A DNA stretch of 64,000 bases from Farysia itapuensis (lineage: Eukaryota > Basidiomycota > Ustilaginomycetes > Ustilaginales > Ustilaginaceae): contig JALBYC010000033.1 of assembly GCA_023212645.1 (NCBI GenBank), positions 1 through 64,000 on the forward strand. The letters are read 5' to 3'. How positions within the stretch are numbered: position 1 is the stretch's first letter; each line of letters begins with the position of its first letter. Below the pieces are notes generated by a model. That model ran no database searches. It was not told the DNA's origin and worked only from the letters and a program-made list of their open reading frames with translations. Of this stretch, positions 13,457-57,118 are shown piece after piece. The position numbers were made by a program, and so were the translations under genes.

Positions 13457-13646
13457 GGTGGTGCGGAGCCAAACCTTGTTCGCGCCTTCATTGTCCAGGT
13501 GTGTGGTGGGGTCTTGTCGTCGTTGTCGAGTGTCAAAGGGGCGAAGCTGTCAATCTGCGCACAAATCGAACAAAATCGGGAGATGGAAACATGTTAGAGC
13601 AGCAGATGCGCAAACTCAGCTCCTTTTGCTTCTCACCACCATCACC

Positions 13647-37721: not shown

Positions 37722-40700
37722 ATGACTGTGACTCTCAACGCTCATTCTCGCAAGCCCGTTTTGGTCTATGCATCCCATCAGGGAGTGCTCCAGGCCGCCA
37801 CGTTCCAGCTTCTGTCCCGCAAAGCGCAGTACGACTCCGTTCTCGCATCGTTCCTAGAATCTGCCTTTAGCGGCACACAGCAGGAATTGCTCGCCATCCA
37901 GACCCAGACCCGCGAACACGTGGTTGCTGCCGGTCTTCCCGACATCCCACTGACTTTGGATGCTCTTGCATCTTCCAAAGATCATCAGGCTTTTGATCGG
38001 TGCAAAATTGCCCTGACCACGATTGCTCATGTTGCCACAGCCATCTCTTCTCGCGACGACTTCAGAAAGGCAATGAGCGGACACTTTCCAGCAGTCTGGG
38101 ATCCCGAATCGGCTCTAGCAGTACACCTGCTTCAGCACGTGGACGTCTCAAACTCTCTGCAAGTACTACAGCGTGCACTCGAAGCGATCAAATTGGCTTG
38201 TTGGCTTGACTACTTTCTGGTTCAGACAACACCAGAAGGAGCATGCAAGAGAATGCTGGCTAGCAGTTACGATAAAATTTTGGATTCTATCCGAGAAGCA
38301 GCTCACAAAGAAGGCATTCCCTGTCAGCAAACCGTCTGCGGACTCGTACTTGGTATCAGCGATCCGAGTCAGTTGCAAAAGGTCCATGCCTATTCAACCA
38401 AGGAAGGAGAGCTTTCTTTGCGCGAATTCTCTTCGCTGAGTATGATCAAAGCTGGGCAGGTGAAAAAGTCAAACTTGTTCAACAGCCTCAAAGAGGGTCT
38501 TCAGAATCATGGCGCTATATACTTTTCCGACCTCGAGCAGCTTTGCGCTCGAAGCGAGGGATGGCCCTCCGCAGACTCGCTCCTTTTGTCTTTTTTGACC
38601 GCTTTGGCAGGCGAACCTGACCATGGTCGTTCTTTGGACCATGTGCAGCAAGCCATCGACGATGTCAAGCAATTGTCTCGTCGCGCAGTCCTGTATGGGC
38701 CCCGCGTATCGCTGCTGATTCTCGGTCGTCCTTTCGCAGATTGTCACTTCGCACAGCTGGCTACCAAGCTGTCGTCCGACGGTATATGCCATAGTACCAT
38801 ACAGCTCAGCCACTTCTTGTACGTCAAAGATAACACACGCTTCGGGGATGAGCCCGTCAAGCTTTCCAAAGTCGAGGGCAACCCTTGCCAGCAGATTGCT
38901 ATCATCGGTATGTCTTGCCGCCTTCCCGGTGCCAATGACGCAAAAGAGCTCTGGGAGCTACTCCAGCGAGGAGACGATAAATGCCAGAAAATCCCTGAAG
39001 CGCTGTACAATTACAAGGATTACCACTCGAGCTCCTATCGAGACCGCAACGTCATGCGAGTGACTACAGGCAATTTTGTGACGGTTCCTCAGCTCTTTGA
39101 CCGCAGTCTACTCCCCGTTGACGGTGCAACTGTCGAAGATTGTCAGCAGATGGACCCACAGCATCGTGTCGCCCTCCTCACCGCATTCGAAGCTCTGCAG
39201 CAAGCTGGGTACGGCTTCTCTCAATACAGGCCCCCTTCTGATGCTGAACAATGGAGCTGTCATGTGGCATACTGCAGCGACGACTACAGAGAGCATTTGA
39301 GCCACGACATTCAAACGGGCTTCGTGTCGAATACTCATCGGGCTCACTTGGTCAGTCGGATCAATGAGACTTTTGGATTCCAAGGAGAGGCTTGCACGTA
39401 TGACACTGCATGCAGCTCGGCCCTCGTTGCCGTTGAGGCGGCTTGCAATAGTCTGCTGTCGGACAAATGCAGCCATGCTGTTACAGGAGGTATCAATATC
39501 CTGACGCAGCCTCAGATCACGATTGGCCTGGATCGAGGCTTCTTCCTTTCAGCCGCTTCGCAGTGCATGACGCTAGATGATGCTGGAGCCGGATACTCTC
39601 GAGCAGACGCAGTCTCCCTCATGCTTCTGAAGCGCCTGCCAGATGCGGTACGCGACGGTGATCCCATCTTAGCTCTGATATCTTCAGCAGCAACTAACCA
39701 TTCTGGCGAATCATTTTCGATTACTCATCCTCATGGTCCGACTCAGCAGCGTCTTTACCGATCAGGTATGCTTGCCAGTGCTACTTTGCCAGAAGACTTC
39801 TCCTACATTGAAATGCACGGCACTGGGACCCAGAGTGGCGATCTCGAAGAGGTGACTGGAATCATAGGCGCATTCGGCGAGGACAAAAGGGACGGCAAGC
39901 CACCTTTGGTACTAGGCTCTGTCAAAGCCAACATTGGCCATTCCGAGGCCGCATCAGGAGCCAGTAGCATGATCAAGACTCTCAAGATATACGAGAAAGG
40001 CATTGTTCCCAAGCATGTCGGCATTCGAACAAAGCTGAACAGCAAGTTGCCGTCGCTCGAAGGTTTCAAGGTTCCAATGGAGCCCGTTGCTTTGACAGAC
40101 GTAGACTGGTCCTGCACGCTTGTCGATAACTTTTCGGCAGCTGGCGGTAACTCTTCCATCGTGTTGGACAAAGGCGCTCGTTACAACACGAGACTTTTGC
40201 AGCAGCAGAACAACTCGGAAGCTGGAGCCAGCGAACAGTCGCTGCTTCTATTCGTAACAGCAGCTAGTCCTTTCTCCCTCGACGCCAAGAGACGAAGTCT
40301 GATTGCCTTTTTGGAAGAACATCCAGACATCGCGATACGAGATTTCTGCAGTACAGTCTCATTAAGCGACCCGATGTTTCAGTTCCGTTTGCTTGCAACG
40401 CCTTCCAGCATTGCAGAGGCTAAAGCCTGTCTTGGCAGTAAAGAGTCAATTACGGTTCCTCGGCGATCGAAGGAATCGAGTCCTCGCATTGGGATAGCAT
40501 TCAGTGGTCAGGGCTCACAGTATCTCGACATGGGAAGAGAGCTGTACGAACTCAGCCCCAGTTTCCGTACTCACATCGATCAATGTGGCATCATTGCTTC
40601 GAGCTTGCGCCTGCCTGATCTGGTTGAAGTGATTCGTCCATCTGCACCGGACTCGGTCTCGATGGAGCAGCGTACAGCCGACAGCTTTAGCCCAGCTCAA

Positions 40701-43556
40701 TTTCAGCTAGCGCTCATAGCCATCGAGATCGGTCTTGCCTCAATGCTGACGGACTGGGGAATTAGGCCTGTGGCCGTCATTGGCCACTCGCTAGGCGAGT
40801 ACGCAGCGCTTTGGATCGCTCAGGTGCTTTCCCTACGAGACGTTCTGAGCTTGGTGGGTGCTCGAGCGATGCTCATGATGGAGCTTTGTGAGCCACATGC
40901 TTCGTCGATGCTTGCTATTCGAGCTGGTAGCAGCGAAGTACAAAGCCTACTTGATCGATCCGGTCTGGTTGACCTTGAAATTGCGTGCCTCAACAGTCCA
41001 ACGGATACGGTCATTGCGGGAAGAACAGCTCAGATTGAAAAGCTACGAGTATTCTGCAACATGTCCGAGCCCAGGATTAAGGCTATGGCGATACCTGTAC
41101 CGTATGCTTTCCATTCACAGTCAGTCGAGGCGTTGATGCGACCCTACGCAGACGTCTTGAAAAAGCACCGACTGAAATCTCCCAAGTTGCTCATTGGATC
41201 CAACGTCTTCGGCACAGTACTTCAACCTGGCTCTCGAGAAATCGATGAGGGATATCTAGTCCGCCACCTTCGACAGCCCGTAAGGTTTAAAGAAGCTATT
41301 GAAGACCTGCAAGGAAAGGCTGGCGTTGACCAGTGGATCGACCTTGGGCCTCATCCAACCTGCATACCCATGCTCAAGGGCTGTTATACCGAGCAAGCGT
41401 CTCAACCAGCCTTCATCGCTTCCTTGCGACGTGGCAGCTCCTCGTGGCAGGCAACGCTTGATCTTGTCACCAACCTGGCCGCGTGCGGTGTCCCGCTCAA
41501 TTGGTCGAAAGTATGGAACGATCTCGGAACTTACTCCGGGAGCAGCGCCTTGGCTACAAAGCTGCCTTTGTATCCTTTCGATCTTGAAGAGTACTGGATA
41601 CCGTTCAAGGACCGAGGACTTCGTGATCATCTTGTAAACAAACAAGTTCCAGCCGCACAGCTTCCGACCAACGTCATGAAGGGCCAGCGATCTAAGCGGA
41701 CAAGGCAGACAAAGGGTGTCGACAAAAGGCCGCGTCAGCTAAGCAAGCCAAGACATGCGCTCTTATCGTCCTGCATCGAATTGAGTCTGTCGCCACCGTC
41801 TGCAAACTTTCATTCCAAGGTCAACGAGACGCCGTTTCGAGACTTCATCCGCGGTCATATCATCTTGGACGTACCTCTGGCTCCAGCCACTGTCTTTGTC
41901 GAGTTGGCTCAGGAGGCAGTCCACTACTGGTGGCGAGCCGCAAAGGCACAGAATTCGGGCAACGAAGACGAGGTCGTCATGGAAGTCCTTGATCTTTCAA
42001 TGGTCTCTTCGCTCTATCTAGACGAGCACAACCCGAGTCAGAAGGTTGAGATAACGATGCAAGGCGATCCTGGTTCATCCGATGGCTGCATTGTACAATT
42101 TTTCTCCTACAGCGAACAGCAACGTCAGCAACATCAATTCGGATCATGCCGAGTACGTGCCAACGCTGTTCAAACGGTCCAGAGGGAATGGACCAAGCTC
42201 TCGCATCTTATCAGAGCTGCAGTCAAGGGCGTAATGGCTCAAGCAGATTCTATCCTGAAGCTCGACACTATTTACTCGCAATTCGAGACGATTGTGCTGT
42301 ATCTGGGCGGCTTTCGCGGGATGAATCAGATCTGGATGACAGAGGACAGCGGCGAAGCGGTGTCTCTTGTCAAGTACAATGCACAGGCTTTGCCAGGCAA
42401 ATACCTTTGCAGTCCGATGCTATTGGACAGTCTCGGCGGGCTGACAGGCTTTATCAGTAATGTCTCGTTTGCAGAAGACAAGTGGATCTACATGGCAGAA
42501 GCAATCGGTAGAGTTGTCACTACACCGCAGCTCAGCCAGTTGCAACCAGGATCTGATACCAAAATCAGTGTATACGCTCGCATGGAGCAGCACAACGAGT
42601 TGTCCACCGGCTCGGCCTACTTCTTCACAGCAGAGGACGGCGTTTTGATGGGCATGATGGAGGGCATCGTTTTCAAGCGCATCCGACGCGACGTCCTTCG
42701 ACGATTGGTCCACATGTCCTCGAAAGCATTCGCTGAAGAGGCAAAGCGGGCCGCTAAGCCCGCCGAGACAAAACAAACTCTGACAGGCCCTGCAAAGTCT
42801 ATCATGGCTAGCGCACCATCCAGTATGGAGCCCAAGAACCATGCGGAGTACACTGTCGATTTGATGCATGCCTCCGTTCTGCCGTATCACCTTGGTGGAC
42901 CTGTCTTGAGGTCTTTTGACAAGGGACCAGCTCTGTTTCTCTTTCCAGACGGAACAGGTTCAGCCAGAAGCTATCCGCGCTTCGAAGATTCACCTGTCTC
43001 CATCTACGGTTTCGAGTCTCCGTACTTGGGACAGCCAAAGGATTGGAGTCGGGGAGTGTCGCAGTTGATCGAACGCTACGTAGACATGTTGATCAAGGTG
43101 CAGCCCAAGGGCCCATATCGCATTGGCGGGTGGAGCATCGGAGGTATTATCGCACTGCAAGTGGCACGACATTTGCTTTCAGCGGGGCACCAAGTACTGT
43201 TTCTTGCCCTCATCGACACCCCCTCAGCCGCTCAGATCAGGCCGCTGTCGACTCAAACACTGGACGGCATGCTGTCACGCATTGGATCGACAACGGTGCG
43301 TGAACACTTCCGATCGTGTGCTCTCAGTCTGCCCAACTACCGATGTCTACCATTCCAGCATGGCGACAGAAAGCCAGAGAGAATCGTCATTGTCAACGCA
43401 AGCGATCAGTCCAGGATGGAAGGCGTCATGTCAAACAAAAGCGAATGGCTCTCCTTTTGGTCAGACACAGCCAATGTGACGTACAAAGAAGTCAAAGGCG
43501 ACCATTGGAGCTGCGTCGAACCTGCCTTGGGCGAGATAGCCAAAGTAGCGCAGTAG
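37722..43556 (+). CDS. PKS-A: non-reducing polyketide synthase (degenerate SAT)-KS-MAT-PT-TE without ACP
   Basis: A single-exon, 1944-residue type I PKS. The N-terminal SAT-like region (~1-370) lacks the GxCxG active site. KS (~390-810) is intact: Cys in DTACSSALVA (~563), His in MHGTGTQSGD, His in KANIGHSEAASG. MAT (~920-1230) is intact: FSGQGSQ, nucleophile in GHSLGEYAA (~1023), and His in PYAFHSQSVEA. PT (~1350-1660) has its dyad: His in RGHIILDVPLAPATV (~1378) and Asp in LLDSLGGLTGF (~1568). TE (~1735-1944) has PDGTGSA, Ser in GGWSIGG (~1804) and His in GDHWSC. Between PT and TE there is only a ~75-residue linker, with no DSL phosphopantetheine site. The enzyme should need an ACP from elsewhere; PKS-B is the obvious donor. 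The start is the ATG at 37722, not the upstream GTG. Confidence 0.94.
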   Translation: MTVTLNAHSRKPVLVYASHQGVLQAATFQLLSRKAQYDSVLASFLESAFSGTQQELLAIQTQTREHVVAAGLPDIPLTLDALASSKDHQAFDRCKIALTTIAHVATAISSRDDFRKAMSGHFPAVWDPESALAVHLLQHVDVSNSLQVLQRALEAIKLACWLDYFLVQTTPEGACKRMLASSYDKILDSIREAAHKEGIPCQQTVCGLVLGISDPSQLQKVHAYSTKEGELSLREFSSLSMIKAGQVKKSNLFNSLKEGLQNHGAIYFSDLEQLCARSEGWPSADSLLLSFLTALAGEPDHGRSLDHVQQAIDDVKQLSRRAVLYGPRVSLLILGRPFADCHFAQLATKLSSDGICHSTIQLSHFLYVKDNTRFGDEPVKLSKVEGNPCQQIAIIGMSCRLPGANDAKELWELLQRGDDKCQKIPEALYNYKDYHSSSYRDRNVMRVTTGNFVTVPQLFDRSLLPVDGATVEDCQQMDPQHRVALLTAFEALQQAGYGFSQYRPPSDAEQWSCHVAYCSDDYREHLSHDIQTGFVSNTHRAHLVSRINETFGFQGEACTYDTACSSALVAVEAACNSLLSDKCSHAVTGGINILTQPQITIGLDRGFFLSAASQCMTLDDAGAGYSRADAVSLMLLKRLPDAVRDGDPILALISSAATNHSGESFSITHPHGPTQQRLYRSGMLASATLPEDFSYIEMHGTGTQSGDLEEVTGIIGAFGEDKRDGKPPLVLGSVKANIGHSEAASGASSMIKTLKIYEKGIVPKHVGIRTKLNSKLPSLEGFKVPMEPVALTDVDWSCTLVDNFSAAGGNSSIVLDKGARYNTRLLQQQNNSEAGASEQSLLLFVTAASPFSLDAKRRSLIAFLEEHPDIAIRDFCSTVSLSDPMFQFRLLATPSSIAEAKACLGSKESITVPRRSKESSPRIGIAFSGQGSQYLDMGRELYELSPSFRTHIDQCGIIASSLRLPDLVEVIRPSAPDSVSMEQRTADSFSPAQFQLALIAIEIGLASMLTDWGIRPVAVIGHSLGEYAALWIAQVLSLRDVLSLVGARAMLMMELCEPHASSMLAIRAGSSEVQSLLDRSGLVDLEIACLNSPTDTVIAGRTAQIEKLRVFCNMSEPRIKAMAIPVPYAFHSQSVEALMRPYADVLKKHRLKSPKLLIGSNVFGTVLQPGSREIDEGYLVRHLRQPVRFKEAIEDLQGKAGVDQWIDLGPHPTCIPMLKGCYTEQASQPAFIASLRRGSSSWQATLDLVTNLAACGVPLNWSKVWNDLGTYSGSSALATKLPLYPFDLEEYWIPFKDRGLRDHLVNKQVPAAQLPTNVMKGQRSKRTRQTKGVDKRPRQLSKPRHALLSSCIELSLSPPSANFHSKVNETPFRDFIRGHIILDVPLAPATVFVELAQEAVHYWWRAAKAQNSGNEDEVVMEVLDLSMVSSLYLDEHNPSQKVEITMQGDPGSSDGCIVQFFSYSEQQRQQHQFGSCRVRANAVQTVQREWTKLSHLIRAAVKGVMAQADSILKLDTIYSQFETIVLYLGGFRGMNQIWMTEDSGEAVSLVKYNAQALPGKYLCSPMLLDSLGGLTGFISNVSFAEDKWIYMAEAIGRVVTTPQLSQLQPGSDTKISVYARMEQHNELSTGSAYFFTAEDGVLMGMMEGIVFKRIRRDVLRRLVHMSSKAFAEEAKRAAKPAETKQTLTGPAKSIMASAPSSMEPKNHAEYTVDLMHASVLPYHLGGPVLRSFDKGPALFLFPDGTGSARSYPRFEDSPVSIYGFESPYLGQPKDWSRGVSQLIERYVDMLIKVQPKGPYRIGGWSIGGIIALQVARHLLSAGHQVLFLALIDTPSAAQIRPLSTQTLDGMLSRIGSTTVREHFRSCALSLPNYRCLPFQHGDRKPERIVIVNASDQSRMEGVMSNKSEWLSFWSDTANVTYKEVKGDHWSCVEPALGEIAKVAQ

Positions 43557-43661
43557 AAGACTTCTCGCTTCCCAACGCAGACAATACGAAAGCAACCTTT
43601 TTCCTTTTGGCGTATAAAAAGAAACAAGGATTGGATGGGTAGTGTACATGGCAGCGGTGCT

Positions 43662-44567
43662 CTAAATCAGATGGGGGGATTGGGGACAGTAGGTGTCGAA
43701 GCGCTCTTCGACCTTTTCCCAGTTGACACAATTCCAGAAGCGGGTGAGGTATTCTTCCTTACCCATGACGCCGTAGTCGTTGAGCCAGGCATGCTCATGG
43801 ACACTAATGTTGAGAAGGGGGAAGAGCTCCTTGCCGACCTGATCGGTGATGTTCATTCCGCTGAACAGCGAGCTGGACAGTCTGCCTGGACGATCATTCT
43901 GCTGTGGCTGACCGGCTGACGGGGCTGAGCCGGTGGTCTGTTCGTTGATGCTGGGCAGCGAGAAATGCTTGCCCTGCTGCATTCGATTCTGGACAATGAC
44001 GGTTCCTGCACCATAGGTGGGGACCACGCCCAAGTTTTTGTGCTGGTCCGTCACGAGCCAGACCCAGCCGGATCCAGCCATGCCAAATGCAGCCGAGGAA
44101 AAGGCCAAACACATTTCGGGGTAGCTGCTAAAGCTTTTCGAGATGGCCGTCGCCAGCTTGGGAAGAGGCGTTCTATTCCTCAACAGATCTTGGGGGCCGA
44201 GGGTGGAGAGGAAGAAGCTGTTGTTCAGCGCCTGCGATGCATAGTTGAAGGCCAAGATCTTTTCACGCTGCTTGGCCAACCCGATCACGGTCTCGACAAT
44301 GGAAGAGGTAGCAAACTCGGTATCCCTGACTTCCTCGTTCAGCATTTCCAACAGCCCTCCCTGCCATCTCTGCGAGATGAGTTCCACTGTGTCGCGAGAC
44401 ATGAAGGGAGCACATCCATCTAGCAGCAGGTCTGACGTTGGTGGACATGTATGCAAGCTACGTCGATTCCAACTCGAGCCGGATGCAACCGCGGGTGTTG
44501 ATGCCGCATTTGCTCTTACCGAGCGCAGCAGACGTGACGCTGCACGACTTGATCGAACGAGAACCAT
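43662..44567 (-). CDS. Mitochondrial small-subunit ribosomal protein of the Fe/Mn-SOD fold (mS42/mS43 type)
   Basis: A 301-residue protein with an Arg/Ser/Ala-rich mitochondrial presequence (MVLVRSSRAASRLLRSVRANAA). The body resembles Fe/Mn superoxide dismutase: NYASQALNNSFFLSTL, SSAAFGMAGSGWVWLVTD and SVHEHAWLNDYGVMGKEEYLTRFWNCVNW. The metal-binding set of true SODs is only partly kept (the first His-rich helix motif is altered), and a Gln/Pro/Ser insertion sits at ~210-235. This is the pattern of Rsm26/Mrp1, SOD-like subunits of the mitoribosome. The ATG at 44567 best fits a presequence; in-frame ATGs at 44612-44618 would add 15-17 residues. It lies between the two PKS genes but is a housekeeping type. 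Confidence 0.8.
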   Translation of the reverse strand: MVLVRSSRAASRLLRSVRANAASTPAVASGSSWNRRSLHTCPPTSDLLLDGCAPFMSRDTVELISQRWQGGLLEMLNEEVRDTEFATSSIVETVIGLAKQREKILAFNYASQALNNSFFLSTLGPQDLLRNRTPLPKLATAISKSFSSYPEMCLAFSSAAFGMAGSGWVWLVTDQHKNLGVVPTYGAGTVIVQNRMQQGKHFSLPSINEQTTGSAPSAGQPQQNDRPGRLSSSLFSGMNITDQVGKELFPLLNISVHEHAWLNDYGVMGKEEYLTRFWNCVNWEKVEERFDTYCPQSPHLI

Positions 44568-44789
44568 GGCGAGGCTGATGGAAGAACGTCTGGAAGAAAA
44601 AGCATGTACCATCATCATTGCCTGGCCTTTTTTTCCCTTTGCATGCTTCTAAGCAATCTTGCGATCACACATTCGCAACCACTTTTTGGATTCTTCTCGC
44701 GCGGAAGAAAAGAAGAAACAAAAGCAACACCAACACCCACTACCTCCCACTCACACCTCTTCCTGACAGGTTTCACCCCAGCTTCGATA

Positions 44790-46670
44790 ATGCCTGCAGG
44801 GTTGGCTGCTGTGCCACCAGCTCAGCTGCCATCTAGGTATCAGGATGTGATCAAGATTGCCCTCCGACCGCGTCAGTCGAGAGCGTTTCTGCTTGCTCTT
44901 GCAGCCTGGCACGTACTACTCTCCCTCGCTCAAATGCGTGCATTGGCCGTATTTGCGCCATTGACCCTCTTGATCAGCAGCGTCTCGTTTGCATTGGGTA
45001 TTCTGTCCTTTTTGGTGCGGAGAAAACGTGTGCTCTCCGCCACAAAGGCTAGTCCGCCTCGATTACCGACGTCGCGAGCTGCTCAGCTATCGGCTGTATT
45101 GTCAAGCTCCGGTACCTGGTCGTTGGCATACAGTCACGCGCTTGGATTCGTTGTGCTTGCATTCGCGTATGCGCTGCTTGTCACTGCTACTTCGGGCGGA
45201 TGGGGTCCGCAAGTGTGGGTCGAGTCCCACGGCTCGTACTACTTGAACGAGCGCTTTCTCTTCTTGCTGGGGCATGCCGCTGTGCTGGGTGTAGTCTACT
45301 CTATCACATTCAGAAGCTTGCCATCGATCGAAGTTGCTTCTTTGGCTACCTTTGATGCGTCCATCAGTCCGTCGGAGCCTCTCGGCTCGCTCAAGGATCA
45401 GGTGTCCAAGGCATTCCGCATCCGAGTAGCACCTGCTGCAGCAACCGGCTTCGTCTTGGGTACATCAAGTGTCGTGCTGTACAGCATGATCCGCATTCGC
45501 ATCTGGAAAGCCCTGCTGCTGCTTATGGGAACACGCAGTATGACGAGAAGGGTGCTGATCCCCTCCTTTCGTGTCGAGTTTGGCTATGTTTCCGTAACGT
45601 TGCGGTCGACACTATTCAGCATGGCTGCGATGTGCGCTGTGGAGACGGCCTACCTGCTGCTAGACGTCTACCTCTGTCACGGTCTACCGGCTGTGAGCAA
45701 GTACAGCAAAAATGCCAATCGTCTTTTGCTAGACGGCATGTGTGATCCGACGCTCTTCTTTTCCAGCCACGCTTTTGGCGAGTTGGCCAGGTTGAGCGCA
45801 ACAGACGGCGAAGCACGCCTTGCCATTTACCGCGATGTCGCAATCGATGGCGCCGCCTGGCCCAAGATTCGGGACCACTGTCTCAAAGTTGTGGAAGATC
45901 AAAAGACGTTTCTTGCGAAGAGAGGTGTGGATGCACCAAAGCCAGCTGCCACCGCAGCGAGTGCCAATACAGTCACCAAGCAGCAGCAGCAGCCGCAGCA
46001 GTCCTCACAGACAGTGTGGAACATGCTTGCAGCAGGAACAGTGCCACAGCCTGCTAATGCTCAACCGGCCTCAACGCCAGCGACGCCTGCCACCAAGACA
46101 GCGTCTGCAGCATCATCAACGCCGACAACCATACTCAACATGTGTCTCAAGCTCGCCAAAACGATGTGGACGCTGCTACCTGGAGATGCCAAACACGTCC
46201 TGTTTGGACCTCGTAGAAAGCAAGCGTGGCTTGGCGAGAGTGTTGCATCCCAGGCGCAGTCCGTTGCAGGTCGAGATGCAGCCCGAGTCACTTGGGCCAT
46301 TCTCTCGCTCAAAGAACTCTTGTGTCACAGTCTCGACCAAGACCCGTACGGCTCTGTGCAGAAAGACATCAAGCTTGTCCTCACCAGTCTGGCACAGCTC
46401 GGCACCCAGCTGCGCAAGTACGGACTCGAGCTGGAACAAAAAGCCATTCAGGCGGATCATCAACTCGCCCAATCTGAGCCAAGCAAGGAGACAGCCAGCA
46501 AGACAATCCACACTCAGAAGCAGCTGACATCAGCATGGCGTGCAAGCGGTGCCGAGACGGTCGATCTGAGCCTCACACACTCGATCAAAGCCATTCTAGA
46601 CACCTTTGGTCGCTTTGGCCTGCACTTGGGTCCAGAGCTAGAGCTCCAACTATCGCACTACTTGTCATAA
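44790..46670 (+). CDS. NDC1: Nuclear pore / spindle pole membrane protein NDC1
   Basis: A 626-residue protein with about six transmembrane helices in the first ~290 residues (for example AFLLALAAWHVLLSLA, LAVFAPLTLLISSVSFALGIL, GFVVLAFAYALLVTA) and a soluble C-terminal half. The stretch FFSSHAFGELARLSATDGEARLAIYRDVAIDGAAWPKIRDHCLKVVED matches the conserved Ndc1 soluble domain. NDC1 anchors the nuclear pore in the membrane and inserts spindle pole bodies in fungi. A Gln/Thr/Ala-rich linker (~395-450) is variable. The start is the ATG at 44790; earlier codons of the open frame have no family support and overlap the divergent promoter. Confidence 0.85.
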   Translation: MPAGLAAVPPAQLPSRYQDVIKIALRPRQSRAFLLALAAWHVLLSLAQMRALAVFAPLTLLISSVSFALGILSFLVRRKRVLSATKASPPRLPTSRAAQLSAVLSSSGTWSLAYSHALGFVVLAFAYALLVTATSGGWGPQVWVESHGSYYLNERFLFLLGHAAVLGVVYSITFRSLPSIEVASLATFDASISPSEPLGSLKDQVSKAFRIRVAPAAATGFVLGTSSVVLYSMIRIRIWKALLLLMGTRSMTRRVLIPSFRVEFGYVSVTLRSTLFSMAAMCAVETAYLLLDVYLCHGLPAVSKYSKNANRLLLDGMCDPTLFFSSHAFGELARLSATDGEARLAIYRDVAIDGAAWPKIRDHCLKVVEDQKTFLAKRGVDAPKPAATAASANTVTKQQQQPQQSSQTVWNMLAAGTVPQPANAQPASTPATPATKTASAASSTPTTILNMCLKLAKTMWTLLPGDAKHVLFGPRRKQAWLGESVASQAQSVAGRDAARVTWAILSLKELLCHSLDQDPYGSVQKDIKLVLTSLAQLGTQLRKYGLELEQKAIQADHQLAQSEPSKETASKTIHTQKQLTSAWRASGAETVDLSLTHSIKAILDTFGRFGLHLGPELELQLSHYLS

Positions 46671-46968
46671 AATTGCAATCTTACAGCTAGCGCGGAAAAG
46701 CGGAATTTCGACTTCGGCTAAAATTGAGGGGAGGAGCGGATTCGAGCCGAAATCACAATCACAATGCGTGGGTGAGTGTGGGAAAAGGTGACTGGAGAAA
46801 AAGAAGGCTTAACGCGGGGATATACGCCTGCCTGCCTCCATGTGTCACATCCATCACAAAATCACAATCTCGATCGGATCAGCATCCGACACGGCTTGAC
46901 AGACCATGCACAGCTGAGCACACACATGCGCTTCTCTTCTCCTCTCTCTCTCGCGCCAGAACATCGCC

Positions 46969-49900
46969 ATGGATCGCTCAGCCACCGCAGCAGATCTCCT
47001 CTCGTCGCCCGACCAGCGCCGTCAGCAACAGCAGCACCAGCAGCAGCAACACTACCATCATCAGCGTCAGGATCAGCAGCAGTATGCACCGTTCCAGCCG
47101 CCAGCCTCTGCATCCATACCGCAATCCTTTGGCATCCCCCCAAAGGGTATGACCGTCAATGGACGCACACCCAACAACGTCGACCCTACCTATCTCACAA
47201 CTTTTAACGATCCCATCGCCGAAGCATACATCGCAGATCAAGCCCTAGATGAGCCCTTCTACTCTCTACCACCCCCCGGAATGATTTATCTCGCTGATGG
47301 GTCACTCGTACCCATCTCATCTGCGAACGGCATTGTACCTGCGTACTCCCAGCATCCAGGTACAGTCCATCCCGCTACAGTCCACGTCGACACCCGGTTT
47401 CAAGAGCTGGCAGATGATGGCTCTTTCGGTCTCTTTGATGACTTTGGTGGTCAGGCTGACGGCACGTTTGGCGAGGAACTGTATGATGCTGTACCTGGGT
47501 CTTCCGCTCGGGCCCATGACGGCAGCGCAGACCAAGGTGTGTCACCAACAAAGGATGCACGTGCACCACGTCGTCGCACACGCAGGAGACAGAACATCAG
47601 TTGTGACCAGTGTCGAGCGTCCAAACGAGGCTGTGACTTCCAGCTTCGCCTCGACGCCGATGGAAATGACACGTCCAAGGCAGTCGGAACGGATGCAGAG
47701 CCCAGTGCGACAGCCTACACAGATGTCGAGAATCGTGTTCCACCACCACCACCAGACATTGCCATGCCGCTCCCCTTTTCGGCGCCGAGTGTTCCGGGTA
47801 CTGGCGACAAGCGCAAGCTGTCTGACGCTGGTCAGCAGAATGGCACAGCAGGTATAGGGGCCAACAAGCTGGTCTGTTCCAACTGTCAGAGAAGAGGCAT
47901 CGAATGCACCACCAACTTTGCAGACTCCGTGAGGATCAACAAGCTAGCAGCTCAGGTAGCCAAGGATGAACCCTCTTCAGAGCTGTTCTCTTCATCTCCG
48001 GTCATGGCAGGTAGCGCGACCAAAAAGCGTGCTTTACCCGAACAAGGGTCAGACAAAGGGGTGCGTTCCATGTCAGTACATAGCAGTGATACCGGCTCAA
48101 CCAGCGATCCAGATGGCAGCGAATCGCGTGCACGCTTCATCAGAAACTTTCAAGATCGAACGGAATCTTCCACATTGGCTGCCAGCGGTCCCAATGCACG
48201 CTTCACCCATCGCGCCGACTCGTTGCTGCTAACCACCAGCCGAATGCGTCTCTACGTCCACACAGTCGAGCCCAACGCCAATCTCTGGCTCTCTCGGGCA
48301 TGCTCCCCACTCCGCACCGACGGCGACTTGGGGGCGTACATCAAAAGTGCCATCGGCTTGGACGCCCTCGGTCTCTCGCAACAGCTTTGGGCTTCTTGGC
48401 ACGTCGATTCTCCCTCGTCCAAACGAGAACACCAGCCAAACCTCTTCTACCTCGTCTACGGTCTGGATCATCTGGGAGGCGAGATGGGCGTCTGGGGCGA
48501 AAAACCACAACAGGTATCCAAGATGTCGGGTAATGGCGCACCGAGCTCCAACGCCGCTCTTGATGCAGCATCGTCCGAGTTTTATCAGGGTCTTGCCGAG
48601 ATTACCGGCAGAGCTCCTGGTGGCTGGCGTCGATCAAAGCGTGATCTCATGATTGACGAAGCGGTCAAAGCCACCATGCTCGCTTATGCCTGTCAGTTCC
48701 GACTGGACGATGAGACTACGTCAAGTAGCGCTGACGCTATCTCCCGCAAGGCGCTCGACGGCAAAATGTATCGCGACGCCCATGACCGTATTGCAACAGC
48801 GGCCTGGAAGCGTGCCCGTTCTCTCATCCTCCAGCTTGCCCCACGACGCTCCTGTCGAGTCGCTTACGGTCTCTTCTTGTTCGGTGTCACAGCACCTCCC
48901 CCGGGCGCGCTGGCGGAAGGCGGTGTCACCTCAGGAGCGGACGCGGCAGAGGATGCAGCATTTGCGTTTGAGACTGCCGCACGTCATCTCGAGTGGTTCG
49001 TTAAGCGCTGCCGCAATCTGGTGCGCACTGTCGACCAAGCTTACAAAAATCCATTGCTTAGCGACAATACCGAGGTGTTGAAGCAGCGCCGTGTTGCAGG
49101 AGACCTTATGGGTCTGGCCGAATCTCTCGGCTGGTTTGGTCTTTTGATTGATACCGTAGCGCACGTCTCGCAAGGACGGAACTCCAACATGCGCGAAGAC
49201 TCGCTGGTCGATCAGTCTAGCGGAATCGGATCAGGTACTGGACCTGGCGTCAGTCATGGGCCTGTTCCCACGACTGGCTTTGCTTCGAGCCCGCCGGATC
49301 TTTCGACCGAGGCCCTATTTGCACTTCAAGACACGATCAATCTCTTGCCTTCTCGACAGGCGCCGCCCGGCGCCTTCCCTGGTACATCGGAGACGTACAT
49401 GCACGAAGAGTCGGACGTCGATGGATCGTTCCAGGTGGACACCGTCATGTCGCAGCGGATCATGGAGCGAGCTGCCTGCGCGCGCGACCTGATTCCAGCA
49501 TTGCTGCGCAACCCGGGTGCCCTTGCCAATGCCATTCCTTTCGAGACGCTAGTCGGCGGAGATCCCAATGCGCCGACAGGCGGCACGCTGCTCAACATCA
49601 ACAGTCCAGGCGGTGGTCTGAACGAGCAAGTCGTCTTGCTCGGTGTCGCATGGGGCACCGCGGTGGAGGTATACATTTGGCGTCGCGTCGGAGTGCTGCA
49701 TGCAGCAGCGCGCACCCTCCTCGCGTCGAACAATGCCTACGAGGCTCTGGTCAAAGGCTCTGGTGCAATCGTGACAGACCGCATGGAAAAGCTGGTGATG
49801 AACATTCTCGAGGCCGTTCGTCTCTTTCACAGCATTTTCGACAGCTTGATCTCTCGCGCTCTCGACGAATTCGCCCATCTTTCGCGCCAGGCTCGCACCA

Positions 49901-50640
49901 TGCTGAGTTTCTTTGTCATTCACATCCATCTGGGTGTATTGCACTTTATTCGACTGGCGAAAAAGATGGAGCAGAAAGAGCTGGAACTGGTTCAGTCGTT
50001 CAATGCTACTCAAGCGGCTTCAGCCATGCAGTCGTCCCCCAATAGCCACTCGCCAGAGACGGCCAAGTCGGCTTCGTCCAACATTGGCTCACCGCCGGCC
50101 AGCAGGTCAGCACAACAGCCGCTTCGGTCCAAGATGATTGAGTCGAGCGTCGAGCGTCGCATCGTCGGTCGTGCCGCTGCTCTGGGCATGGCGCGCGTAG
50201 CAGCGCTGATCAACGCCGAGTCCGCCCAACTGGAAACGGCAGCTCGTCTGGGAAGAATGGGACCAAAAGCATCGCCCAAGGACGGCAAAGCACGCAAAGG
50301 CTCCTTCTACGACCGAACTGGCGAAAAGGGCATCGCTAACCCGAACCCGAACCCCATCGAAGACTCAGCCAACGCACCCTGGAGACACCCATACCCCATC
50401 ATGGTCGCAGACGCCCTCAAACTAAGCGCACAGCAACTGCACGACGAAATCTGGGACCACCTCATCATCGTACCCCGCAACGACGCCGAACTGACCCTCC
50501 TCATGTCCAACTTCTCCGTCCTCCTCGAAGGATTCAGCCGTCTACTCCACGCAGTACCAGGCCTCGGTGTCTATCAACAGACTCTCTCCGATCTGGAAAA
50601 CGCACGTGATACGGCAAACTTTGTCGCGTCCCAGCCTTAA
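46969..50640 (+). CDS. Zn2Cys6 transcription factor with an 80-residue insertion inside the zinc cluster
   Basis: A 1223-residue regulator. The N-terminus is Gln/His-rich (~15-45). The zinc cluster is split: ISCDQCRASKRGC (~212-222, C-x2-C-x6-C) and LVCSNCQRRGIEC (~303-313, C-x2-C-x6-C) are separated by 80 residues, where a normal GAL4 cluster has roughly 5-12. A basic RRRTRRRQN stretch precedes it. The remainder resembles the fungal middle homology region (AFETAARHLEWFVKRCRNLVRTVDQAY, ILEAVRLFHSIFDSLISRALDEFAH). It is encoded between PKS-A and PKS-B and is the natural candidate for a pathway regulator, though it could equally be a global factor with no role in the cluster. Confidence 0.88.
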   Translation: MDRSATAADLLSSPDQRRQQQQHQQQQHYHHQRQDQQQYAPFQPPASASIPQSFGIPPKGMTVNGRTPNNVDPTYLTTFNDPIAEAYIADQALDEPFYSLPPPGMIYLADGSLVPISSANGIVPAYSQHPGTVHPATVHVDTRFQELADDGSFGLFDDFGGQADGTFGEELYDAVPGSSARAHDGSADQGVSPTKDARAPRRRTRRRQNISCDQCRASKRGCDFQLRLDADGNDTSKAVGTDAEPSATAYTDVENRVPPPPPDIAMPLPFSAPSVPGTGDKRKLSDAGQQNGTAGIGANKLVCSNCQRRGIECTTNFADSVRINKLAAQVAKDEPSSELFSSSPVMAGSATKKRALPEQGSDKGVRSMSVHSSDTGSTSDPDGSESRARFIRNFQDRTESSTLAASGPNARFTHRADSLLLTTSRMRLYVHTVEPNANLWLSRACSPLRTDGDLGAYIKSAIGLDALGLSQQLWASWHVDSPSSKREHQPNLFYLVYGLDHLGGEMGVWGEKPQQVSKMSGNGAPSSNAALDAASSEFYQGLAEITGRAPGGWRRSKRDLMIDEAVKATMLAYACQFRLDDETTSSSADAISRKALDGKMYRDAHDRIATAAWKRARSLILQLAPRRSCRVAYGLFLFGVTAPPPGALAEGGVTSGADAAEDAAFAFETAARHLEWFVKRCRNLVRTVDQAYKNPLLSDNTEVLKQRRVAGDLMGLAESLGWFGLLIDTVAHVSQGRNSNMREDSLVDQSSGIGSGTGPGVSHGPVPTTGFASSPPDLSTEALFALQDTINLLPSRQAPPGAFPGTSETYMHEESDVDGSFQVDTVMSQRIMERAACARDLIPALLRNPGALANAIPFETLVGGDPNAPTGGTLLNINSPGGGLNEQVVLLGVAWGTAVEVYIWRRVGVLHAAARTLLASNNAYEALVKGSGAIVTDRMEKLVMNILEAVRLFHSIFDSLISRALDEFAHLSRQARTMLSFFVIHIHLGVLHFIRLAKKMEQKELELVQSFNATQAASAMQSSPNSHSPETAKSASSNIGSPPASRSAQQPLRSKMIESSVERRIVGRAAALGMARVAALINAESAQLETAARLGRMGPKASPKDGKARKGSFYDRTGEKGIANPNPNPIEDSANAPWRHPYPIMVADALKLSAQQLHDEIWDHLIIVPRNDAELTLLMSNFSVLLEGFSRLLHAVPGLGVYQQTLSDLENARDTANFVASQP

Positions 50641-50756
50641 TCCCCCCCTCTCCCCCTCACCACTCTCGCGGGAAATGTCAAGCGATGTGGCAATGGCATT
50701 CATTGTAATCGGGCTGTGTTATCTAGTGTTCTGAAAGCGGTGGGCCCTGAGGTTTA

Positions 50757-53700
50757 CTAGGGCTGGGAGGCGAGGGCGGTGCGGCAGTGGGATGCGATGA
50801 TCTCGGATACGCGCGCGATGGCAGGTGGGCGGACGAGGGTAAAGTGGTTGGCGTGTGGGATGGTCTCGGTGTGTACGGTGGGTAGGAGTGTGTCCCATCC
50901 GTCTGGGCCGTGTGCTGTGGCGCCGTTCAGGTGGAAGAGCCAGTCGATTGTTGCATTAGGCTGGTCGACAGCGCCAGTTGGGTCGCCGGGCAGAGCGTCC
51001 GCGGGGACAATGTACACCGCATGCACGGCCGTGTGCATCCGCACCGCTTTGTACAGCGCCAAGTTGTCCACCGTTGCCTTGAAGTGCGCGATAAGCTTGG
51101 GCGACATGCGCGCTGGTGCAATGTCCTGCACCTCTGGAGCGGTCGTGATCCAGTCGACAAACGTCATCGGCAGCGGAGGATACTTTGCAGGACACGGCGA
51201 GTGCAGCAGAAACAGGCCCGCTACCCGTTCTCCCACCCCGGCGTCGGTGTGCTCGCCCAGCATGCGGGCGATTTCATACGCCACCATACCGCCGAAACTC
51301 CATCCGCCCACCAGGTACGGCCCCTCCGGCTGGACCAGCTTCATGCAAGCGTAGTAGTACTGTGCGATTTGTTCCACTCCGCCGTTCCACTCGCTTGCGT
51401 CGCTCAGAAACGCAGAGTTCAGCCCGTACACCGCCCGCTCCATCGCAGGCACGAATTGGTACACCGCCGACATCCCCGCCCCGTCCGGGATCAGAAAAAG
51501 GGGCGGCTGCGACTCGCTGCCCGTACCAGCACGCAGCAACACAGGCGCTTTCGCCTTGGGCACGCTGAAACGCGAAGGGCTGTGCATGGCAGCGGTGTTG
51601 ACGGCAGCTGTGATGGGCGCAGCGGAAAGCTTGCTACCGAGGAAGACTCGAATATCGCGCAGCGTGGGATATTCCAGGAACAAAGACGGTGGTAGCTCGA
51701 AACTGAGCTGTGGCGTCAGGCTGCCCAGCACGAGGAGCGACATCAGCGAGTCCATTCCGAGATCAGCCAAGTTAGCGTCTTGTCCAAGGCTACCGGCCTC
51801 CACGCCTAACTCCGTCTCGACTGTTCGAACAACAAGCTCCATCGCTTCGTCCACTTGGCTAGAATTGGACGGCGCTATGTCCGGTAGCATGGCGTTGTCG
51901 TTATGAGCCTCGATCGAATCTGTTGTTGACTGTACAATTTCAGAAAGGACGACCGGATCTGGCCCGTCATCTACTTGCGTACGGATCCAGGTGAGTAGCT
52001 CTCCCGGGCTGTCGCACTCGAGGAAAAGCGACTGCGGGATCGGAAATTCCAGGTTCAGCGATTCGAGCGTCGACAGACATACCAGGGACATCAGACTGTC
52101 GAGGCCGAGGTCGGCAAACTTGACGGCTGGCTTGATCTCGTCAGCAGACACACCCAATTCGGCTGCAAGCACGTCAATGATTTTCTCCAGCACTTGCATC
52201 GCCTTGCTTTTCCCCGCGGGAGCTGTGACTTGGACGAACGTGGCCTCCGGTGCAGAGACGATCGTAGGAGCCTGGTGCCTTGACTCAGTAGTCTTGACAA
52301 CAGGTGCAGTCTTGACAGCTGGAATGCTGGCCTTTGTCTCTTGAGCCACTAGCTTGAACTTGGCAGCATGCAATTCGCCTACAATGTTGAGCTGCGCATC
52401 AAGCACAAATACCTCGATGGTCACTGATTTGTCGTCATGGGTCGATCGAGCATTATTTTCGAGCAGCGCCATGTACACCTTGCACTCGAGCCACTCGTCT
52501 TGCACAAGGTCCTGGAACGGAAGCAAGATAGCTTTCTGTAGTTCGTATAGCTGAAAGCCGACGTCCCCAACGTCCGCAAGGGAACTGCAGAACCATGCCC
52601 CACACTGCTCGAGCACATCAAGCAGGCGTGGAAATTGACTAAAGCCCGGTCTAAAGTCAGCTGTAGACAAGCGGCACGAAAGAAGCGCAACGGCCTCTGC
52701 GCGCAGTAGTGAAGCGCTGCGAATGACTCGTACAGCAGACGAGTGTGTGTGGACCTTATCCAAGGCGCGTTGAACTAGACGCGGACCTAGCATCTCTCCG
52801 TTCTTCACAATCCTATCTAGATGATCCTTGAGCAAAGACTGGGTGGTCGCCCATGACCGCACTGCTTGCAATCGCGATATAGGATCAAGTGTGCAGCAGG
52901 CAAAGTCTTGCCCGATTCGCTCTTGAGAAACAGTAATCAGTCGGGATGCTAGACGGACGCTGGTAAAGATCGTCTCAGTCTGATCCAGTCGCAAATTATG
53001 GAATTGTACTTTGCGCAGACAGATCGGATCAGCGGCATCGGTGGTAGAAAGCGCCGCCTCCTTGATCGACTCGCACAGTAGCTCTGCAATCACCGACAAC
53101 GCAGACTGAGATTCCATCGTGTCCGTCCAGAGCTTGCCTTTCAGGTCTGATCGGTATACTCGCTCGTCTGAGTCTGTTTTGACCACCGAAGACAGCAGAG
53201 ATTGATTCAGAACACTTTCCTCTATTTCGGTACCTGCTGTATCGTCGCTTTCGTCAGTTTCGCAAACGTCAGAGCTGTCATCGTCCCCAGAAGCTGAAGC
53301 AACGTCAGCTCGGATCAGATTTCGATCATGGTAGTCCATCCAGTACTTCTGTAGATGGAAGCTGTATGTCGGCAAGTCGTGTAGCATCTTTAAATCGTAG
53401 AGGTAAGGGCGGTGAAGCTCGATCCACTTGACATTGTATCCTCTTTGATGCAGGTCTGCAAGACTTTTCAGCAAAAGACTGTAGAGGTTTGCTGGTGAAA
53501 CTTGGCCGTCCTGAGAGTCCACTGAAGTCATCAAAGAGTCACCAATGCGCAACCACGTCGTTCGTTTCGTCTCGTCGCGAATCTTGGGGAGTGCATCGGA
53601 GCCAAGGATTCTGTCTGGATGCGTCCGAACTAGGTTCAAAGCTTCCCTCTGTGAAGTGCTGCCGCGGATCGTTGTATGTTGCTCAGGCTCTGTGCCGTCC

Positions 53701-56700
53701 TGTGCTTTCAAGATCGTGATCGTATTACGAGGCATCGTTCCTGTAGCGAGCAGAGGGATAGCTGGCGCCAAAGAGCCAGAAACGTGTGCAGGGACCAGGC
53801 CAAGATCAATCAAAAAAGTGCTGAGCATCATCTGATGCGCTGTGAACTGTTCTTCCCTGGTCAATTTTTGCCCGTGCGATACGAGTGCTTGAACATCATT
53901 TTGTCTCTGCAGTAGACTCATATCGCTGGAAACAAATTCCGCGAAGGCTGCTGTGTCGGTCAGGGAGGTCTCGTTCGCGAAGAAGAAGCCCAAGTCCGGA
54001 AGATCCGTCGCGGAGGTGACCTCCTCGATTCCTGCAACAGCTAGGTGTGTCAGTAATTCGCTCTGCTCCGCTGCCACCACAGTCAGTCTGAAGGGATGAT
54101 GCGTTCTTCTGCACGTGAGGGTGTAGCTCAGATCGCTCAACTCAACGTCGCGCTGAAGATAGTTGAGGAGAGCCCTTCTCTGTCCTTCGAGCGACTCCTT
54201 CGTCCTAGCTGAAAGGGTGAACACGTACGCAGGACGAAGGTCCTGATCAGACTCCGGTGGAGCGACAGTGTGTGCTTCTTGAACCAGCAACGCTCCCTGA
54301 TGGCCTGTGCTTGCCAAGCTGTTCACAAGGATACATCTCTTGCGATCTGATTTTCCTTGGCCTTGTGGTATCTTCTGAGCCTGTACCGGCACAAAGAGAT
54401 TCGATGTCTCGCAGACGTCTGAGATTCGAGGCTGCAGCTGTAGTCCTCCCGATCCGGTCAAATGACGTGGAATCATGCCGTTTCGAAGCATCAAGACAGC
54501 CTTCATAACAGATGCCATAGCGGGGACGGCCTCACCAGCTCCCAAGTTCGGTCGTGTACTGGATACCGAGATTTTGGGAAGCGACTGGCTCGTCGAAGAG
54601 ACTAGCTGCTTGAAGGCCTCGAACTCGACAGCCTCGCCTTCTTGAGAGTGATATCCGCTCGCCTCGATATGAGTCACGTCCCGAATTTCAGGGCCGTGCT
54701 TGGAGAACAGCTTCTTCATCACTGCGGCTTGGCGAGAGGCGGATTGCGGCTGGTTTTTTGTCGGATGATGGGACGCTGTTTCTACAGCCGGCAGGCAAGC
54801 CAGGATGGTGTCTCCATCTCGCACAGCAGTCGAGCGTCGCTTAAGCAGTAAAACGCCACAGCCATCTCCTCTCGTCTTTCCATCCAGCTGCGAGGAGAAT
54901 GTAGCATTGGTACCGCTTCGAGACAGGACACCGTCTTTGTCCATGCCGATGAAGATTTGAGGCTGAGTCAACACATTGACAGCGCCAGCCAATGCCACGT
55001 CGCACTGATGGCTCAACAATGCGCGCCTGGACCACTCAATTGCAGATACAGCTGTGCATTCCAGGGTGTCAACTGAGACGCTTGGACCTTCCCATCGGAG
55101 AGAGAAAGAAACATGTCCAGGAATGAAGGCACGAATATTGCCGGTGATGAAGTAGCTACCAATATTGTGGCTAGCGTTCTCGCGATAGTCGTCCCATGAT
55201 GCACCCATACAGATCGCTATGCGTTTTCGGTCGAATGACGATGGCGAATTGGCATCATGAGAGTAGCCGGCTCTTTCAAGAGCTTCATAGGAGCACAGCA
55301 TGGTCAAACGGTGCTGCGGGTCTAGCTGTTCGATCTCCTTGGGCGACATGCTAAACAGTCGAGCGTCCATAGTCTGGGTGACGTCAGCTGGCAAAGCATG
55401 CATGTGACGAGCCAGAGTCTGATTGACACCAGAACCGTAGTATTGGTCGATATCAAACAGATGCTTTGGTATCTGCAGAATGCATCAAAGGCATGGTCAA
55501 ACATTACGTCACGTCAAAAGATGCGTGGCTACATCCTTACCTCTGAAACAGTCTGACGCCCACTTTCGAGACAGCTCCACAGCTGTTCAGGTGTTCGAAC
55601 GTCGCCAGGGAATCGACATGCCATGGAGACGATGACTACTTCATCCCCCTGGACGCTTGGATCGCTGAGGTAACGAGGCAATCTAGATTCGTTGAGCGAC
55701 TCGAGTGTCTTTGCCCAGTCACGAAGAAGGCTTGGAACATCGTAGACGTAAGTTGAGGATACCAGTTCCGGCTTAGATTGAGCATCAAAGCGCTTCTTGA
55801 TATCTGAAGCGAGACCTATGCCAGGACCGAGGCTGACGATCGCTCGCGATCTGCTGCATACACCTTCCTGTTGTTCTTCAGCTTTGAGTAAAGCGTCGAC
55901 TGTGGCATCCCGCCATGCTGGGCTGCAAAGGTTGCTCTGCGCGAGTCGATGTACATAGGCAGACGGATCTTCTTCGTGCAAGACGCCAATTTGAGCCGCA
56001 TCCCACACAGTCTTAGTAGGGCGAGGGATATCTGCTTTACACAGCAAGATGCGGCTCTCGATATCGTCTAAAATGCGCCTGGCTTCGGTTTGTAGATCTT
56101 TGTGGTGGTATGGTGAGTAGATTTCTAGATCGCACGTCCTCAAGGTGCCCTGACTCTGGTCGACGTCCTGCAGCCATTGACTGAAGATTTGCAAAAGGGC
56201 TGGAGGGCCACTGACGGAAACTTGGTCCAAAGCGTGGGCCGTGACGTATAGCTGGCTTGAGAAGTCGGGATGCTAATGCCCCAAGATTTTGGTCTCCAAG
56301 TCAATTTGTGCAATACTTCTGACGTTTTGCGCGGCAATGCTCACCTCTATCCATGTCGCATGAAAGTCATCGAGCAGGTCACGAACGCGGTCGAGGCTGC
56401 TGCTTGAGGCTGATGAGATCACCATACTCCAGCGAGCCTCTGCGCCATTCAAGGTGTGACTGTTTTTTGCCACTCGTTCTCGCGAAGCTTTGGAGCGAAG
56501 ACCTATCCAAAAGGCGACGCGAATGGAGGTGATGGCAGCCTGCATGTAGCTCCATACATTGCAGAGCTCGGCTCCACACGATTCGGCAATGTTGCCGGCT
56601 GCCCAAGCGGAGAGTGCACCAGTACAGAGCCCAAGTAGATGGGCATGTGGATGGCTGATAGCCGACCAAGTTTCTGTCAGGGCAGGATCAAGCATGTTTG

Positions 56701-57118
56701 CTCGAGCGCAGTGAACTGCCACAATGTTGGCGGCCTGCAAGAGACACAAGAGGACACTGTTGATCACAGGATCGGTGCGGTTGGTACAGACATGATAGCT
56801 GACAAGACTGCGAAGGTCTGAAAACACGTCAAAGGGTGGAAGGTGGGGCAGAAGCTCAATCTCTTTGGATCGCGGATGGTCTATGTTGGGCTGTTGACCG
56901 ATAGGGATCTTGGCGACGCTCTGCATCTCTGCACGGATTGCTTCGAGTGCAAAGGTGATGAAAGACTGAAGTTGCGGCTGGTAGCGCGCTAGCACAAAGA
57001 CGGCATCAAAGGCATGGAGAAAGTCGGAGCCTTGAGAGCCAAAGACGAGGACAGGCGAGGCTTTCGGTCCCGACAAGATTGTCGGGCTGGAAAAGGGCTC
57101 AGAGTCTGAGAAAGTCAT
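50757..57118 (-). CDS. PKS-B: non-reducing PKS-like protein SAT-(dead KS)-(dead MAT)-(dead PT)-ACP-ACP-TE
   Basis: Three exons (57118-56345, 56272-55541, 55472-50757; introns of 72 and 68 nt with clean GT-AG borders and preserved phase) give 2073 residues. SAT (~1-370) is intact: GLCTG at the active site and His in SPYHHKDL. The KS fold (~470-900) keeps its framework, but the active-site motif reads VDTLECTAVSA: Glu aligns with the catalytic Cys, with a Cys one residue later. The HGTGT His is Ser (EASGYHS) and the NIGH His is Ala (NLGAGEA). The MAT region is shortened and has SGSLAP instead of GHSLGE. The PT region lacks its His. Two ACPs follow with LGLDSLMSL (~1627) and LGMDSLMSL (~1743). 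TE is intact: GGWSFGG (~1893) and PHANHF. A TATATAA box lies ~50 nt before the ATG. Confidence 0.93.

Follow-up and report, generated by a model that had tools for sequence, protein, structure and literature searches.

We describe two polyketide synthase (PKS) genes of Farysia itapuensis (Ustilaginaceae), PKS-A and PKS-B, which both encode proteins of the non-reducing type (NR-PKS) with reciprocal losses, and which probably make up a single split synthase whose two proteins depend on one another. Both lie on contig JALBYC010000033.1 (assembly GCA_023212645.1) within the 64,000-nucleotide stretch of DNA that was analysed, hereafter the window. PKS-A (37722..43556, forward strand) would be the catalytic subunit: its 1944 residues carry, in order, a vestigial starter unit acyltransferase (SAT), a ketosynthase (KS), a malonyl acyltransferase (MAT), a product template (PT) domain and a thioesterase (TE), without an acyl carrier protein (ACP). 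PKS-B (50757..57118, reverse strand, 2073 residues) would be the loading and carrier subunit, built as SAT-KS-MAT-PT-ACP-ACP-TE with a defective KS, MAT, PT and TE. This anatomy gives good support to joint action of the pair as one NR-PKS, as does a search of the assembly in which no other PKS and no other PKS-type SAT or ACP was found. From the same evidence we infer that the two proteins would associate physically, that their live and dead KSs would form a heterodimer, that labour is divided between them, and that they arose by duplication.

Reciprocal losses in PKS-A and PKS-B

PKS-A is a single exon, one open reading frame without interruption that starts at 37722. PKS-B starts at 57118 on the reverse strand and has three exons (57118-56345, 56272-55541 and 55472-50757), separated by introns of 72 nt (56344-56273) and 68 nt (55540-55473) with GT..AG ends; once these are spliced out, 2073 codons are open. 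Both start codons are placed exactly to the base as in an initial annotation of this DNA, which had read the two genes as a split, heterodimeric NR-PKS.

The KS of PKS-A (38892..40166) retains Cys564, His699 and His740 within DTACSS, HGTGT and NIGH motifs. It scores 164.9 bits on the Pfam ketoacyl-synt profile and is 37.4% identical to norsolorinic acid synthase (8cg4) and 39.4% identical to CTB1 (6fij). Similarly, the MAT (40500..41459; 136.4 bits on the acyltransferase profile) keeps Ser1023 in GHSLGE as well as His1131, and the PT (41799..42713) keeps His1379 and Asp1569, as seen in an alignment with the structure of the PT from the aflatoxin-pathway PKS, with a TIGR04532 score of 197.6 bits against a cut-off of 168. 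Indeed, the initial annotation had already called the residues of these three domains intact. The TE (42930..43553) has Ser1805, Asp1832 and His1928, with a Ser-Asp spacing of 27 residues that matches the reference; His1928 was assigned from its motif and from the alignment of the two proteins because the PDB alignment of the TE ends before the His. For TE and PT alike, these assignments follow the residues that we take to be catalytic in the references. What PKS-A lacks is a recognisable SAT elbow and an ACP. Its SAT region (37722..38891) has no GxCxG and scores 14.0 bits on the Pfam SAT profile, under the cut-off of 22.8, and in the alignment with PKS-B it shows an 18-residue gap after residue 138 that coincides with the GLCTG elbow of its partner. 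The Pfam domain scan found no PP-binding domain in PKS-A, and its PT-TE linker matches no family at E<=10. Both absences had been claimed at the outset, with a hidden ACP named as one finding that would overturn the proposal, and the linker in which one might lie is empty.

Competent versions of these missing parts are found in PKS-B, all on the reverse strand. Its SAT (56105..57049) has Cys165 in GLCTG and His314 in PYHH, and scores 70.8 bits on the Pfam SAT profile in the exon 1 frame and 90.5 bits with its neighbour in that frame. Its two ACPs (51984..52187 and 51651..51836) each carry a DSL serine, Ser1628 and Ser1744 respectively, so that the SAT and ACP motifs reported initially are all present. 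The pseudo-KS (54300..55639), which crosses intron 2, is full length, and its Cys/His/His positions are held by Glu640, Ser774 and Ala814. Direct alignment to norsolorinic acid synthase and CTB1, to which it is 31.4% and 28.0% identical, places DTLECT at DTACSS, SGYHS at HGTGT and NLGA at NVGH, which bears out an earlier reading of Glu, Ser and Ala at these sites; the exon 3 frame nevertheless scores 149.8 bits on ketoacyl-synt. Downstream (53316..54263), a kept KS-MAT linker is followed by a gutted MAT core of 206 residues versus 358 in PKS-A. About 150 MAT residues have been lost, GHSxG is absent, as had been noted, and neither Pfam nor NCBIfam gives an acyltransferase match. The next region (52209..53315) holds no recognisable PT: neither a PT model nor, at E<=10, any PDB chain matches it, TIGR04532 has no match in the exon 3 frame, and the single match obtained is a chance one to a DNA glycosylase (E 0.13). 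A structure predicted for this region from a two-row alignment had a mean predicted local distance difference test (pLDDT) score of 34.9, too poor to be used. The initial claim of a PT without its His therefore holds as regards the missing PT match; the His loss itself hangs on a 20%-identity alignment, in which the Asp-equivalent is retained. Lastly, the TE (50835..51503) keeps Ser1894 and His2045, and direct alignment to the reference puts His1926 in the place of the catalytic Asp. The TE part of the gene (50760-51521) also stands apart in composition: its GC content at third codon positions (GC3) is 0.77 and its codon index 0.716, compared with a GC3 of 0.54-0.64 and an index of 0.54-0.63 across ten further segments measured in the two genes, and this end of PKS-B possibly has a history different from the remainder of the gene.

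The fungal NR-PKS domain set (SAT-KS-MAT-PT-ACP-TE) is thus complete for the pair together and in neither protein alone. Competent KS, MAT and PT occur only in PKS-A, competent SAT and ACPs only in PKS-B, and because the Ser-Asp-His triad of the TE is kept in PKS-A only, all six activities are represented by exactly one competent copy. The claim that each protein lacks what the other keeps therefore stands and extends to the TE, where the PKS-A domain and the Asp-to-His change in PKS-B had both been overlooked. Norsolorinic acid synthase and CTB1 have the same kinds of domain in the same order but carry all of them on one protein (the solved chain of CTB1 being its SAT-KS-MAT part), whereas PKS-A and PKS-B divide them over two. 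Judging from their sequences the two genes are diverged paralogues, with 27.5% identity between their KSs, and they could have arisen by duplication of a complete NR-PKS followed by reciprocal loss.

With the catalytic KS, MAT and PT lost, along with the Asp of the TE, PKS-B might instead be taken for a decaying gene, with PKS-A either using another ACP or itself dead. However, the SAT Cys and His and both ACP serines are retained, 2073 codons are open, and the assembly search found no further ACP of PKS type; a PKS-B pseudogene is accordingly disfavoured, and we regard decay as very improbable. In the 655 codons of the defective MAT and PT there are 0 in-frame stops, whereas the two shifted frames on that strand contain 31 and 26, although with the ACPs lying downstream an open frame would be expected in any case. 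GC3 in the dead domains of PKS-B (0.54-0.58) is close to that in the live domains of PKS-A (0.55-0.60), with similar codon usage. The stronger point against decay appears to be that the KS has kept its length (416 residues between matching landmarks, 411 in PKS-A) while the MAT core shrank. Least probable of all would be an error in the assembly, the sequence or the gene models: the assembly is in 53 contigs, but the defects of PKS-B are spread over three separate KS loops as well as the MAT, PT and TE and leave the reading frame open, and no hidden ACP was found in PKS-A, which has only one exon.

Starter, carrier and ketosynthase domains across the assembly

The whole assembly (13.7 Mb, 53 contigs) was scanned with profiles in six frames. 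These scans disregard introns and score best candidates only, and the assembly may be incomplete; within that scope, PKS-A and PKS-B are the only PKSs found, and no SAT or ACP of PKS type came up outside them. For ketoacyl-synt, seven matches exceeded the cut-off, namely PKS-A, two pieces of PKS-B, a frame of 3710 residues on contig C51 and three thiolases. The thiolases, in frames of 399, 423 and 584 residues, account for the three weak KS matches that might have been a third PKS. The C51 frame is read as a fatty acid synthase because it has an acyltransferase, a SAT-like match and a phosphopantetheinyl transferase domain alongside ketoacyl-synt, and apart from that SAT-like match the SAT of PKS-B is the only one found in the assembly. 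The acyltransferase profile (PF00698) gave three matches, in the C51 frame, in PKS-A and, partially, on contig C23, and none in the MAT of PKS-B. The C23 match lies in a 779-residue frame with no other Pfam match and was rejected as a PKS.

Similarly, PF00550 gave 12 matches, two of them in PKS-B and four in one 4100-residue frame on contig C1 that resembles a nonribosomal peptide synthetase (NRPS); the sole one of these four that was domain-scanned, L011, comes with AMP-binding and Condensation domains. Among the remaining six, four are accompanied by AMP-binding and NAD_binding_4, one by AMP-binding and hexapeptide repeats, and one sits in a short exon, apparently that of a mitochondrial ACP. 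Because these other matches lie in NRPS-like, AMP-binding or mitochondrial-type frames, the PKS-B ACPs are the only ones found in a PKS context. The carriers of fungal fatty acid synthases belong to a different Pfam family. A mitochondrial ketosynthase was expected, yet none surfaced in the KS scans of the assembly. Scans of bacterial genomes with the KS-MAT of PKS-A and with an alignment of the two KSs gave no useful relatives, yielding 0 loci, one locus, and two KS matches in the genome that holds this locus.

These scans bear on a further possibility, namely that PKS-B works in a different pathway, as a SAT-ACP loading protein for another enzyme, and that its complementarity to PKS-A is fortuitous. 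Two points favour this reading: given two losses in PKS-A and four in PKS-B, a perfectly complementary split has a 1/15 probability of arising by chance (1/10 if the TE is not counted), which also counts against a joint synthase, and the two genes are separated by three others. No other PKS was found that might use the PKS-B ACPs, however, and PKS-A would be left without any; we consider a separate pathway for PKS-B very unlikely and prefer the split synthase.

A possible pairing of live and dead ketosynthases

As one split synthase, PKS-A and PKS-B would share a single catalytic cycle. The SAT of PKS-B would put the starter on its own tandem ACPs and the MAT of PKS-A would supply these ACPs with malonyl in trans, after which the KS of PKS-A would elongate the chain tethered to PKS-B, its PT would fold and cyclise the chain while still tethered, and its TE would release it. 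The full-length dead KS of PKS-B would be the dimer partner of the PKS-A KS and may help to shape its tunnel, as the chain-length factor (CLF) does in type II pairs. In type II systems, KS and CLF are an obligate pair of active and inactive KSs whose channel forms at the dimer interface (PMC12664062). The inactive partner is without catalytic residues, as is the KS of PKS-B. The difference is that type II KS and CLF are discrete proteins, whereas the KSs of PKS-A and PKS-B sit inside multidomain type I proteins. The odds seem to us even that PKS-A and PKS-B form an obligate pair, a type I analogue of KS and CLF, with a CLF-like PKS-B whose dead KS completes one functional KS site per dimer, the megasynthase having been subfunctionalised into a catalytic polypeptide (including TE release) and a carrier-scaffold polypeptide.

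Conservation within the two KSs bears on this pairing. We aligned them with those of norsolorinic acid synthase and CTB1 and scored the alignment columns that are identical in both references (n=249). In the four catalytic loops PKS-A matches 35/42 columns and PKS-B 12/42. The stretch that precedes the nucleophile (reference residues 563-600) has the opposite tendency, with PKS-B matching 15/27 columns and PKS-A 9/27; here PKS-A (39318..39386) has diverged from the NR-PKS references, and PKS-B (55080..55154, reverse strand, YFITGNIRAFIPG...GPS) remains close to them. Columns matched by one protein alone number 5 for PKS-A and 11 for PKS-B in this segment, 24 and 1 in the loops, and 41 and 20 elsewhere, giving p = 1.4e-5 in a Fisher test of segment versus catalytic loops. 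When the alignment is read in 15-column windows, the largest lead of PKS-B falls around residues 567-584 (9 vs 3); it is slightly ahead in a few other places and behind PKS-A over most of the KS. This is the pattern that a heterodimer would give, because the active site of PKS-A would then meet the segment of PKS-B. The pattern is therefore suggestive of a heterodimer of live and dead KS, though not proof of one.

Several points pull the other way. Over the whole domain PKS-A is the closer to the references (129/249 columns, with 91/249 for PKS-B), the test of the segment against the remaining KS gives p = 0.02 only, and the segment was picked post hoc from an alignment with two references only. 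Its bearing on the interface draws on general knowledge of KS structures, in which the pre-nucleophile strand, with the stretch leading up to it, is part of the dimer contact and extends to the tunnel of the partner subunit. The KS of PKS-B is also unevenly kept, its C-terminal half scoring 55.3 bits on Pfam and that of PKS-A 93.2, and its nucleophile position holds Glu, where the type II CLF has Gln.

It may also be that each protein pairs with itself, so that a PKS-A homodimer would use in trans a free PKS-B homodimer for loading and chain carriage, with no dimer of live and dead KS. KSs are known to homodimerise, and that of PKS-A is catalytically complete. This arrangement would nevertheless leave unexplained why PKS-B has a full-length dead KS and the better-scoring KS-MAT linker (PF22621; 49.1 bits versus 22.4 in PKS-A in the same scan, and 51.6 vs 27.5 as fragments) beside a shrunken MAT core, and why PKS-B, not PKS-A, resembles the references before the nucleophile; we judge it unlikely. 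Of the heterodimeric NR-PKS proposed in the initial annotation, then, joint action is well supported, and the KS-KS heterodimer finds indirect support in the full-length dead KS and the better-kept segment.

Counterparts in smut fungi and neighbouring genes

Pairs of this kind have already been proposed in Ustilago maydis. Pks3 and Pks4 are described there as heterodimers that yield orsellinic acid and triacetic acid lactone, Pks5 making the aldehyde, and their unconventional melanin cluster on chromosome 12 also includes pks5, cyp4, vbs1, mtf1 and mtf2 (PMC10098057). The heterodimer that the initial annotation had named is therefore in print, and the likeness to PKS-A and PKS-B is that of two PKSs acting together. 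In the 64 kb window, the 24 other frames scanned with Pfam are mostly housekeeping in appearance and include no P450, AMP-binding reductase or GMC-type oxidoreductase; the cluster partners pks5, cyp4, vbs1 and mtf1 are not matched among them. Pks5 itself is built as AMP-ACP-R and produces o-orsellinaldehyde (PMC10064546). Four loci on other contigs of the F. itapuensis assembly (L009, L016, L017 and L018) have this same build (AMP-binding, PP-binding and NAD_binding_4). By analogy one of them could convert what the pair makes into an aldehyde by reduction, and some may be primary-metabolism reductases.

The initial annotation did not name a second pair, pks1 (UMAG_06414) and pks2 (UMAG_06418). 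These genes are reported as adjacent and as highly syntenic across most of the 16 Ustilaginaceae compared, and have been suggested to form a complete PKS system together; in U. maydis, deleting only pks1 is enough to block melanin, and pks3-5 were found only in U. maydis among the Ustilaginaceae surveyed (PMC13208730). Principal roles in the melanisation of teliospores are assigned to pks1, pks2 and lac1, with ust1 as their regulator (PMC10532341). Three genes would lie between pks1 and pks2, going by the tags 06414 and 06418 rather than by a map, and likewise three lie between PKS-A and PKS-B. Because they too are two PKSs with three genes between, pks1/pks2 fits better than pks3/pks4 and is probably the nearer counterpart by layout. 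By the same analogy, a melanin precursor is a plausible product of PKS-A and PKS-B. The Pks3/Pks4 heterodimer proposal and the pks1/pks2 suggestion thus precede our pair. In the literature searched, whose texts were covered in part, we found no residue-level complementarity for pks1/pks2. The additions made here are the residue-level partition over six activities including the TE, the absence of any other PKS-type carrier from the matches of the assembly scans, and the uneven decay of PKS-B.

The three genes between PKS-A and PKS-B (43662..50640) were delimited as stop-to-stop frames and encode a Sod_Fe_C protein (43662-44648, reverse strand), the nucleoporin Ndc1 (44553-46670, forward strand) and a protein without a Pfam match (46918-50640, forward strand). 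On its other side, PKS-A is adjoined in divergent orientation by a fragment of an FSH1-type serine hydrolase (PF03959; 36223-37107, reverse strand). Hydrolases of this type accompany PKSs at times, and this one may be a housekeeping gene. About 24 kb before PKS-A lies a Dicer-like gene (8324-13549, reverse strand) with two RNase III stretches, a Dicer dimerisation domain and a helicase, and one Piwi-domain match (Argonaute) occurs elsewhere in the assembly (G000:C2:304444-305361). Genes for RNA interference are therefore present in this fungus; to our knowledge U. maydis lacks the process. In a 639-residue open frame (30630-32549, reverse strand), a CobW-type GTPase domain comes after a MYG1 exonuclease domain; this frame is either a fusion or two adjoining genes read together.

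The anatomy of the pair offers a residue-level reason why both PKS genes would be needed, since neither would complete a product alone. It also makes the heterodimer proposal sharply testable, by comparing PKS-A alone, PKS-B alone and the two together. If PKS-A and PKS-B are indeed a type I counterpart of the KS/CLF pair, chain length and starter choice could be studied on separate polypeptides.

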